Positions 36,617-39,146 of a stretch of DNA of 64,000 nt are shown piece after piece. The position numbers were made by a program, and so were the translations under genes. The first letter of the stretch is position 1; the number at the start of each line of letters is the position of its first letter. Source of the stretch: Candidatus Gastranaerophilales bacterium. Its GTDB lineage: Bacteria > Cyanobacteriota > Vampirovibrionia > Gastranaerophilales > Gastranaerophilaceae. The notes under the pieces were generated by a model. It was not told the DNA's origin. It searched no databases and saw nothing but the letters and a program-made list of their open reading frames with translations. Where the stretch lies: the NCBI GenBank assembly GCA_944324165.1, contig CALUVG010000008.1, positions 1 to 64,000 of the forward strand. Direction: 5' to 3'.

Positions 36617-36847
36617 ATGTATGAATTATATATTTTGGACACTTGTCCATATTCAATAAAGGTAATGAACTATTTTGATGAAAATAAAATCCCTTATATA
36701 AAAAAGAATATTAATGAGAATGACAATTATGCTGAGTTGCTGACATTTGGTGGAAAAGAACAGGTACCATTTCTTTATAATCCTGATAAAAATATTAAAA
36801 TGTATGAATCCGATGAGATAATAGAGTTTGTAAGCAAAAATAAGTAG
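36617..36847 (+). CDS. Glutaredoxin-like protein
   Basis: A 76-residue thioredoxin-fold protein with the active-site motif CPYS at residues 11-14, the cis-proline in QVPFLY and a GG element. Family members use glutathione or other thiols for dithiol exchange. AAAGGAG precedes the ATG. It is 8 bases before the Hcp-like gene and probably cotranscribed, which suggests that the two act on the same redox or nitrosation problem. Confidence 0.8.
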   Translation: MYELYILDTCPYSIKVMNYFDENKIPYIKKNINENDNYAELLTFGGKEQVPFLYNPDKNIKMYESDEIIEFVSKNK

Positions 36848-36855
36848 GTAAAAAT

Positions 36856-38457
36856 ATGTTTTATTATAATTTTATGCGTGACGAAAACGATTACAATACA
36901 TGTGTGGCAAAAGGTGTCTGCTCTATAACTCCGAATATAACAGCATTGCAAGAAGTAATGTTTGTTATGCTCTGTGCACTTGCTTATTACGTTATTAAGC
37001 TGGAATTACTAGGGGCTAAAAATGACAGAATTAAATTGGATATGGTCTATAACATTGTTTATTTGAGTTCACTGCAGGAATACAACGATGAACAGATTAT
37101 CCGGATAATAAATAATATATTTTCTAATTTTATAAATACGGAGCGACTTTATAAATCAATTTGCAATGAACGCGGGTTAAAATTTGAAAAGTATAATGCA
37201 CCTATAAAATTTGCAAATAATACAGAGCTGAGCAAGTTGATCAGAGAAGGCGATAAAGCTTTTAAAAATAAATATAAGGGGCAGGATAAAGAAGTTAAAA
37301 ATTATGCAGAAATTCTGTTTGCAGTAATCAAATCGCTTGCAGCTCTTGTAATTGAATTGGACGATAATGATGTTTCTGTGGAAACAGCAAATGATGAGAT
37401 AATCAAAGCTTTAAATTTATATAATCATGAAAAGCTTAGTGCAGAGAAGATTAAAGCAGAGATATATGAAATATCAGACTTAAATGCAGAGTTAATGAAA
37501 CAGATAAACTCTATTAAATTTGAAAAGTTTGGGGAAGTTCATAAAGTAGAAGTTTCACAAAGCACAACGCGGGGAAAGGCTATACTTGTCTCCGGAAATA
37601 ATCTCAGTGAGCTTAAAGAAGTGTTAGAGGCTGCCAAAGACAGTGCAATAGATGTTTATACAAATGGAAATTTACTAATTGCGCATGCTTATTCCGAATT
37701 TTCAAATTACAAAAATCTAAAAGGTCATTTTGGTAATGGGGTAGAAACTTCAGTTCTTGATTTTGCAACATTTCCCGGGGCAATACTGCTTACGAAAAAT
37801 GAAACACATAATGTAGAATACCTTTATAGAGGCAGAATATTTACGACTGATGAAATTCCGCCCAAAGGTGTTGCGCAGCTTAATGCAGAAAATTTAGAGC
37901 CTCTTATAAACGGTGCACTATCGACTAAGGGATTTACCAAAGGACAAAATCGTAAATCCGTTGAGATTGGCTTTAATTGGGATGAGGTAGAAAGAAAATT
38001 TGAGGAAATATCGCAGAAGCTTTCCGATAGTACCTACAGCCATTTGTTTATTGTTGGACTTTCCAGTCCCAGAAACTCACTTGATGAATATTTTGCTAAC
38101 TTTTTTTCAGCCTTGCCTGATGATATTGCAGTTATATCATTCTCATATTCAGGAAAATGCAAGAATACATACAAAATAAATGTAGCAAATGATTATTCTC
38201 TAGTAACTGTCATTTTGTCAAGGTTATTGGAAAAAATACCGATCGAAAGTTCAAAACTTACTTTTTTCCTAACAAGATGTGACAGTGCAGCGTTTGCGGG
38301 CATGATAAGACTTCACAGACGCGGAGCAAAAAATATTTATATGTCAGACTGCCTGCCAACGATAATGAATCCGACAACGCTAAAAGCATTCAAAAAATTG
38401 TATAACATAAAAAATATGAGCAATGCGAGTGAAGATATTGATAAAGCACTGAATTAG
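36856..38457 (+). CDS. Hybrid-cluster-protein (Hcp/prismane) homolog lacking metal ligands
   Basis: A 533-residue protein clearly of the Hcp fold: VSGNNLSELKEVL, DVYTNGNLLIAHAYSEF, LLTKNETHN...LYRGRIFTTDE, and the C-terminal LPDDIAVISFSYSGK and IYMSDCLPTIMNP. Compared with true Hcp, all eight positions that bind the hybrid cluster appear replaced: His in SGHD is N, Glu in HGEML is N, Cys in TNC is E, Cys in GCDG is S, Cys in GCAKY is Y, Cys in GQCND is lost, and WYEQK is RCDSA. The N-terminal cluster keeps two of four cysteines (CVAKGVC). NO or hydroxylamine reduction is therefore unlikely. It may be a structural or regulatory paralog. Operon with glutaredoxin. Confidence 0.75.
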   Translation: MFYYNFMRDENDYNTCVAKGVCSITPNITALQEVMFVMLCALAYYVIKLELLGAKNDRIKLDMVYNIVYLSSLQEYNDEQIIRIINNIFSNFINTERLYKSICNERGLKFEKYNAPIKFANNTELSKLIREGDKAFKNKYKGQDKEVKNYAEILFAVIKSLAALVIELDDNDVSVETANDEIIKALNLYNHEKLSAEKIKAEIYEISDLNAELMKQINSIKFEKFGEVHKVEVSQSTTRGKAILVSGNNLSELKEVLEAAKDSAIDVYTNGNLLIAHAYSEFSNYKNLKGHFGNGVETSVLDFATFPGAILLTKNETHNVEYLYRGRIFTTDEIPPKGVAQLNAENLEPLINGALSTKGFTKGQNRKSVEIGFNWDEVERKFEEISQKLSDSTYSHLFIVGLSSPRNSLDEYFANFFSALPDDIAVISFSYSGKCKNTYKINVANDYSLVTVILSRLLEKIPIESSKLTFFLTRCDSAAFAGMIRLHRRGAKNIYMSDCLPTIMNPTTLKAFKKLYNIKNMSNASEDIDKALN

Positions 38458-39146
38458 AGTTTCCACGGATAATCATCAGGAATTTTCCAGTTATTCATCT
38501 GAATAATTTTGGTTGCGTATAGTTTATTGGTGTATAAATCCTTTTCCTCCATAATTACACATTCATCATTTTCATCTTTAACGCATGTTGGAGAATTGGT
38601 AGAATCTGTAACGTCAGACGCATACAGCTTGTTTGATACATATGGTTCAAGCCCCTTGTTTAAATAATTTTTACGTGTAAACTCTGATTGGTTCGCATCA
38701 GGATAAAATCCAAATTGAAAACACTTACTTCCAAGATATTCTGTTGATTGTTTTAAATATTTAGCATCTATGCAGTAGATATAGTCGGTTGTACCGTATA
38801 TAATTGACATTGCTGTCCCATCAGTGAAGTATACGTAATAGTTGTAACCTTCTTTTGATCTCCTCTCGCTTTTTAAATAATTTTTGAAATACTTATTATA
38901 AAATTTTTCTTTGTTGTCCGCAAACTGATTAGTAGGAAAACTCCATGTCTTTTTATCACCGTTATCAATTTCAGAAAGACGAATGGTTTCATTCATAATA
39001 TTATAGAATTTCAGTAATCTAGTCTCAACAACTCTTTTCTTATAAGAGTAAACAAGATTTGGAATTGTCAGTGCTGCTACAACGCCTATAATTGCAAGTG
39101 TTATAAGTATTTCGGCAAGAGTAAAAGCTTTAAATTTTATTGGCAT
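38454..39146 (-). CDS. Pilin-like protein divergent from an XRE regulator
   Basis: A 230-residue precursor with leader MPIKFKA and prepilin helix FTLAEILITLAIIGVVAALTIP, cleaved after A7. The mature part has NLVYSYKKRVVETRLLKFYNIMNETIRLSEIDNGDKK and ends in NWKIPDDYPWKL. It is a paralog of the gene at 59707-60438, with similar start and end (NGWKIPDDYPIKF). The stop overlaps the Hcp-like gene by 4 bases. A ribosome site GGAGGA precedes the ATG. Such minor-pilin-like proteins act in type IV pili or type II-like secretion. The XRE gene at 39271 is divergent. Confidence 0.8.
   Translation of the reverse strand: MPIKFKAFTLAEILITLAIIGVVAALTIPNLVYSYKKRVVETRLLKFYNIMNETIRLSEIDNGDKKTWSFPTNQFADNKEKFYNKYFKNYLKSERRSKEGYNYYVYFTDGTAMSIIYGTTDYIYCIDAKYLKQSTEYLGSKCFQFGFYPDANQSEFTRKNYLNKGLEPYVSNKLYASDVTDSTNSPTCVKDENDECVIMEEKDLYTNKLYATKIIQMNNWKIPDDYPWKL

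Follow-up and report, generated by a model that had tools for sequence, protein, structure and literature searches.

What remains of a hybrid-cluster protein (Hcp) once the residues that hold its metal have been replaced? This question is raised by an open reading frame (ORF) in the window, i.e., the whole stretch of 64,000 nucleotides that was analysed, which comes from a genome of 2.05 Mb (99.96% complete). Together with a short gene ahead of it, the ORF forms a small same-strand unit, and the flanking genes are on the opposite strand. The diverged Hcp-fold proteins of the present type are named Hcp* here, and the two genes of the pair are as follows:

36617..36847, + strand: glutaredoxin gene, first of the pair, 76 aa, GrxB/GST_N-like, active site CPYS (from Pfam and the 16-orthologue alignment A3)
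36856..38457, + strand: Hcp* gene, 533 aa, ATG start, Hcp fold without hybrid-cluster ligands

Between the end of the glutaredoxin gene (36847) and the start of the ORF (36856) lie 8 bases, in agreement with the first-pass annotation. Upstream of the pair, the opposite-strand neighbour is a UDP-GlcNAc 2-epimerase gene. Downstream, a pilin-like gene (N_methyl, DUF6613; 38454-39146, - strand) is convergent with the Hcp* gene, the two ORFs overlapping by 4 bases (38454-38457), and rpsG and rpsL lie beyond it. No recognisable operator was conserved upstream of the pair among five genus members. In a single-sequence scan of genome contigs, the closest named record to the window Hcp* was a Candidatus Gastranaerophilales metagenome bin, with 75% identity.

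Loss of the hybrid-cluster ligands

The window Hcp* was aligned with D. vulgaris (Dv) Hcp (PDB 1e2u), the E. coli and methanogen Hcps, and canonical Hcps of the window's own family, and all alignments agreed that the window Hcp* retains 0 of the 7 hybrid-cluster ligands. The codons that replace them (Dv numbering for the ligands) are:

37597..37599, + strand: N248 codon, in place of ligand His244
37669..37671, + strand: N272 codon, in place of ligand Glu268
37801..37803, + strand: E316 codon, in place of ligand Cys312
38062..38064, + strand: S403 codon, in place of the persulfide ligand Cys406
38146..38148, + strand: Y431 codon, in place of ligand Cys434; the deletion that removes Cys459 comes next

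Ligand C459 is gone through this deletion of about 12 residues, ligand E494 has become D476, and K496 has become A478. The change of eight hybrid-cluster positions claimed at first pass is real, but the count has to be corrected to seven ligands plus one neighbouring lysine (K496). The loss of two of the four N-terminal cluster cysteines was confirmed by alignment, C3 and C6 being absent while C15 and C21 are retained as C16 and C22. Alignment with the PDB sequences and with the family's canonical copies ruled out ligands kept at shifted positions; in this comparison, proposed with the original observation, the ligands proved to be truly replaced and none was shifted. The question whether a true Hcp occurs elsewhere in the genome was answered in the negative, the window Hcp* being the sole Prismane protein in the 99.96%-complete assembly. 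It is well supported, as far as sequence can tell, that the window encodes an Hcp fold that would be unable to hold the hybrid cluster.

Fold and classification of the window protein

The window Hcp* scores 96.6 bits with the Pfam Prismane model, against a cut-off of 27. The hydroxylamine-reductase equivalogs of NCBIfam span the whole protein, yet score little over half of their cut-offs (205.5 against 367 for NF003658, and 196.8 against 360.8 for TIGR01703), whereas the canonical Hcp copies of relatives reach 720-822 on these models. An AlphaFold2 model calculated from alignment A1 had a mean pLDDT of 89 and a pTM of 0.89, with low confidence for residues 1-21, which include C16 and C22. Superimposed on D. 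vulgaris Hcp (1e1d), the model gave Z 31.6 and 3.7 A over 509 residues (VIA-align 2), so that the Hcp fold over 500 residues described from the sequence is borne out by both the model and the Prismane match. The outer three-helix bundle is present in the model (helices 26-51, 57-71, and 78-105), and this bundle and the full-length class I/II alignment place Hcp* in the class I/II subtype; class III Hcp chains align to the model only from residue 143, and CODHs align at Z 15-18. Taken together, Hcp* is a relative with the Hcp fold and not an Hcp, since it has the fold but lacks the ligands and the N-terminal cluster motif and falls short of the curated score.

Distribution and selection across the family

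The Hcp* set comprised 155 proteins, extended from the 65 diverged copies of alignment A1, and the 150 from the window's own Gastranaerophilales family were used for per-position counts. When 146 family genomes were searched with Prismane, 138 had matches, with canonical copies (around 450-560 bits) in about 50 genomes and a diverged copy (mostly 50-135 bits) in most of them. The A1 profile found a match in nearly every family genome; this profile also catches canonical Hcps, and nearly all best matches were far above canonical strength.

No ligand was retained in 108 of the 150 Hcp*, one in 29, two in 11, and three in 2, the maximum thus being 3 of 7. The same loss recurs in 150 family homologues, which excludes both an error of sequencing and a pseudogene confined to this locus. 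Two of the four N-terminal cysteines were retained in 136 of 150 proteins, and none or one in 14. No residue exceeds 50% at the freely varying former ligand positions 272, 316, and 403, and position 248 is at most half serine. The position of E494 is D in 113 of 150, and that of E268 is D, N, or E in 120 of 150; the stretch between C434 and C459 has indels, which makes the letters at individual positions there less certain. Eight columns of A1 are invariant and many near-invariant. The dN/dS of two close pairs was about 0.08 (with dS saturated) and 0.11, values which indicate that the gene is under purifying selection and the protein in use.

Many genomes, including that of the window, have Hcp* and no canonical Hcp, and the idea that Hcp* generally assists a canonical Hcp of its own cell was therefore rejected. 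Viral origin was rejected as well, no relative being found among viral contigs, and so was anti-phage defence, for which PADLOC gave no match. Among the ten matches listed for plasmid records there were only canonical-looking Hcps, with ~22-24% identity.

Two kinds of variants were observed within the set. Loci L111-L115 form a clade of short Hcp* (487-501 aa) in which the C434-C459 region is deleted, with C16, C22, C475, and C499 retained and C103 present in four of the five. At L048:3620-8485, L047:429-3688, and L049:1015-4220, two or three mutually diverged Hcp* genes stand in tandem, which suggests differing roles or a hetero-oligomer.

The linked glutaredoxin

Pfam recognised the window glutaredoxin both as GST_N_3 (PF13417; 8.5e-11, 42.5 bits, over the cut-off) and as Glutaredoxin (PF00462; 33.2 bits, cut-off 22.9). 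C10-P11-Y12 is invariant among the 16 orthologues of A3, which gives the Cys-Pro-aromatic active site, but the window copy lacks the dithiol CxxC, having CPYS and being monothiol at that site. CPYS also occurs in some relatives, and CPYC in most linked copies of other genera.

In 95 of the 150 cases the gene immediately upstream of Hcp* encodes a glutaredoxin, mostly at a gap of 0-15 bases, so the pairing pointed out at first pass is real and recurrent. Eighty-five of the linked glutaredoxins are GrxB-like (short, with a QVPF/YL motif) and 10 are Grx3-like, and a glutaredoxin has been recruited beside Hcp* at least twice, from different types. Nine of the 10 Grx3-like partners adjoin Hcp* copies without C16 and C22; these copies (L055, L056, L072, L078, L203, L208, L211, L213, and L215) form a sub-clade (AF/GF type) which appears to have swapped the GrxB-like partner for a Grx3-like one. 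At L057 and L066 the glutaredoxin/Hcp* pair is intact amid different neighbours. Among 34 tested genomes without adjacency, a GrxB-like gene was found elsewhere in 19, and none above 100 bits in 15; a search of the neighbours of the stand-alone GrxB-like glutaredoxin gave no consistent partner. At L079, L075, and L063 the epimerase-Hcp*-rpsG locus is present without a glutaredoxin gene, no genomic GrxB-like copy exceeds 100 bits, and the gene was apparently lost secondarily. The link between glutaredoxin and Hcp* is recurrent, not obligatory. The window genome has, in addition, a Grx3-like glutaredoxin and a glutathione-synthase-like gene, the latter scoring somewhat below the curated cut-off.

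Conserved cysteines

The following cysteine codons of the window Hcp* are conserved among the 150 family members:

36901..36903, + strand: C16 codon, equivalent to canonical N-terminal cluster Cys15, retained in 137/150
36919..36921, + strand: C22 codon, equivalent to canonical Cys21, retained in 138/150
37162..37164, + strand: C103 codon, new cysteine where helix 78-105 ends, 135/150
38278..38280, + strand: C475 codon, new cysteine at Dv Tyr493, directly before former ligand Glu494 (D476), 146/150
38350..38352, + strand: C499 codon, new cysteine at Dv Thr517, 146/150

No family member lacks just one of C475 and C499; both disappeared together in three separate lineages, all on long branches. 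In the Fisher tests of cysteine co-loss related sequences were counted, so that the p-values make the association look stronger than it is, and the three joint losses are the sound part of this result. Loss of C16/C22 was not associated with loss of the other conserved cysteines (p 0.46). C103 required about 13 parsimony steps and was lost alone in several lineages, which weakens the idea of a strict C103-C475-C499 triad.

In the predicted structure, strands 468-472 and 494-496 are consecutive in one beta-alpha-beta unit, and C475 and C499 would each lie three residues past a strand end. On loss of its N-terminal cluster, Mm HCP shows a concerted movement of the loops near Glu434 and Trp461, both of which lean on the N-terminal cysteine region (PMC10502027); the neighbourhoods of Glu434 and Trp461 correspond to Hcp* positions 475/476 and 499-503. 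From the secondary structure and this loop movement we infer that C475 and C499 are probably close together, at neighbouring strand tips beside the vacated pocket. The near-invariance of C16, C22, C103, C475, and C499, overlooked at first pass, points to thiol redox chemistry or a smaller metal site, which these residues may serve, and not to an inert scaffold.

Origin of Hcp* and intermediate forms

In a maximum-likelihood tree of 75 proteins the split between the canonical Hcps and all diverged copies was fully supported, although long branches make the exact branching order uncertain. The diverged group includes the sister families f6 and f7. One f7 protein (L108, genome G159, 800-2446) has kept all four N-terminal cysteines as well as E268, C312, and C406, while H244 and the later ligands are lost. 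It narrowly passes the NCBIfam hydroxylamine reductase cut-offs (374.3 against 360.8, and 367.5 against 367) and would therefore be misannotated. Two N-terminal cysteines are kept in L127/L128 and none in L132/L133, and a canonical Hcp of 510-515 aa also occurs in some of these sister-family genomes. At L108, L127, and L128 (all f7), the Hcp* gene stands behind a gene for RNA polymerase beta' (Rpb1 domain 5), a setting unlike the neighbourhood in the window's family. The picture drawn from these sequences is that one Hcp copy would have lost its ligands stepwise in the common ancestor of these families, and that a separate canonical Hcp may have been kept, gained, or lost independently of Hcp*.

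Possible function of Hcp*

We tentatively favour the view, at somewhat below even confidence, that Hcp* is a former metalloenzyme rebuilt as a cysteine-thiol redox protein and serviced by the linked glutaredoxin. C475 and C499, beside the emptied pocket and next to the former Glu494, would form a redox-active dithiol/disulfide, or alternatively carry a persulfide, S-nitroso, or mixed-disulfide state; C103 and C16/C22 might assist as further thiols or make up a second pair. The glutaredoxin would reduce or de-glutathionylate Hcp*, replacing the electron supply needed by a metal-containing Hcp. Its probable substrate, and this is a guess by analogy with canonical Hcp, would be a reactive species of nitrogen, sulfur, or oxygen. 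The loss of ligands with fold and selection kept, the pairing of C475 and C499, the repeated recruitment of a glutaredoxin, and the glutathione-synthase-like gene of the window genome all speak for a thiol role. Against it, the same five cysteines could bind metal, the glutaredoxin is not universal and its window copy has CPYS where most others have CPYC, and lineages without C475/C499 have kept the Hcp* gene, though on long branches.

A metal site re-wired from these cysteines is a less likely but serious contender. C16, C22, C103, C475, and C499, perhaps with D476, would bind a simpler cofactor ([2Fe-2S], [4Fe-4S], or Zn) where the N-terminal region meets domain 3, and the glutaredoxin would either deliver the cluster or serve as reductant. 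Fe-S clusters can be carried by glutaredoxins of the monothiol type, which would fit such a partner. The conservation of the five cysteines at 90-97% and the descent of C16/C22 from two of the four ancestral cluster ligands are consistent with a shared site, as is the contact of the N-terminal cysteine region with the Glu434/Trp461 loops in Mm HCP (PMC10502027). It is harder to reconcile with the AF/GF-type sub-clade, which lost C16 and C22 and kept C103/C475/C499 and a glutaredoxin neighbour, with the frequent loss of C103 (about 13 parsimony steps), and with the absence of a link between loss of C16/C22 and loss of the others (p 0.46).

A little less likely still, Hcp* could be a metal-free pseudoenzyme acting as a structural, regulatory, or gas-sensing scaffold, much as suggested at first pass, its cysteines mainly stabilising a collapsed pocket by a structural disulfide. 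Fold and selection are indeed kept despite the ligand loss, and the presence of Hcp* without canonical Hcp in many genomes implies a role independent of Hcp activity. However, the reduced cytoplasm of a presumed anaerobe makes a buried disulfide of this structural kind unlikely, and such a bond would have no need of a glutaredoxin partner; there is also no linked regulator or sensor output domain.

It is very improbable that the protein still works as an Hcp, assembling a hybrid-type cluster on the substitute N, D, E, and S residues and reducing NO or hydroxylamine slowly. D is common at the E494 position (113/150) and D/N/E at that of E268 (120/150), and some annotation models would name early intermediates such as L108 hydroxylamine reductase; but none of the four cluster cysteines is left, there is free variation at positions 272, 316, and 403, and variants of E. 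coli Hcp Glu492 show the weight of that single ligand (PMC10502027). A decaying pseudogene or assembly error, for which nothing speaks, is already refuted by an open frame in about 150 genomes, a dN/dS of about 0.1, and eight invariant columns.

Returning to the thiol reading, Hcp* may, with a little more doubt, be regarded as a redox enzyme of a new class, based on thiols (or a small metal site) and seated in an emptied cluster pocket, near-universal in gut Gastranaerophilales and provided with its own glutaredoxin, with the intermediates of the sister families recording a stepwise exchange of metal for cysteine.

Comparison with known systems

Hcp*, as traced in the window's family and the sister families, forms a pseudo-Hcp subfamily. 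In the literature searched, which leaves out most subscription journals, we found no description of a ligand-less Hcp or of a Gastranaerophilales Hcp, nor of a glutaredoxin linked to an Hcp-fold protein. Hcp* is carried by nearly all gut bacteria of one non-photosynthetic cyanobacterial family, and to label it "hydroxylamine reductase" would misname a protein that is near-universal in this widespread gut lineage. Hcp is a debated NO-handling metalloenzyme, and Hcp* shows what the fold is capable of without the metal; a cluster-less Hcp tied to a glutaredoxin is also a case provided by nature in which the contested thiol side of Hcp biology (S-nitrosylation) could be tested, and through the graded intermediates of the neighbouring families one could retrace the passage from metal to thiol chemistry.

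Canonical Hcp reduces NO and has been implicated in protein S-nitrosylation, and for class I Hcp no electron donor is known, its gene usually standing without a partner (PMC10210160, PMC13056359). Hcp* resembles the class I/II Hcps (1e2u of D. vulgaris, 8cnr of M. thermolithotrophicus, and 7de4 of E. coli) in its whole-length fold, outer helices, and Prismane match, with about 16-19% identity in structural alignment at Z 30-32. Unlike them, it has no hybrid-cluster ligands, misses two N-terminal cysteines, has a shortened C434-C459 stretch, and carries the new cysteines C103, C475, and C499. Its neighbour is a glutaredoxin, whereas class II Hcp has the Hcr reductase and class I no consistent partner (PMC10210160). 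Class III Hcp (M. marburgensis, 7e0l) aligns with Hcp* in the core domains from residue 143 (Z 30.4), but is a homodimer that lacks the outer helices present in Hcp* and keeps all ligands. As a superfamily relative without the catalytic function of its own branch, Hcp* recalls CODH-V/CooS-V (Carboxydothermus, 7b7q; Z 17.6); CODH-V, however, still binds a redox-responsive Fe-S-O cluster, while the ligands of Hcp* are wholly lost. The partner shares with the GrxB/Grx3 glutaredoxins the CPYS/CPYC active site and the thioredoxin-like N-terminal half, and differs from GrxB in being a short stand-alone domain of 76 aa without the GrxB C-terminal half.
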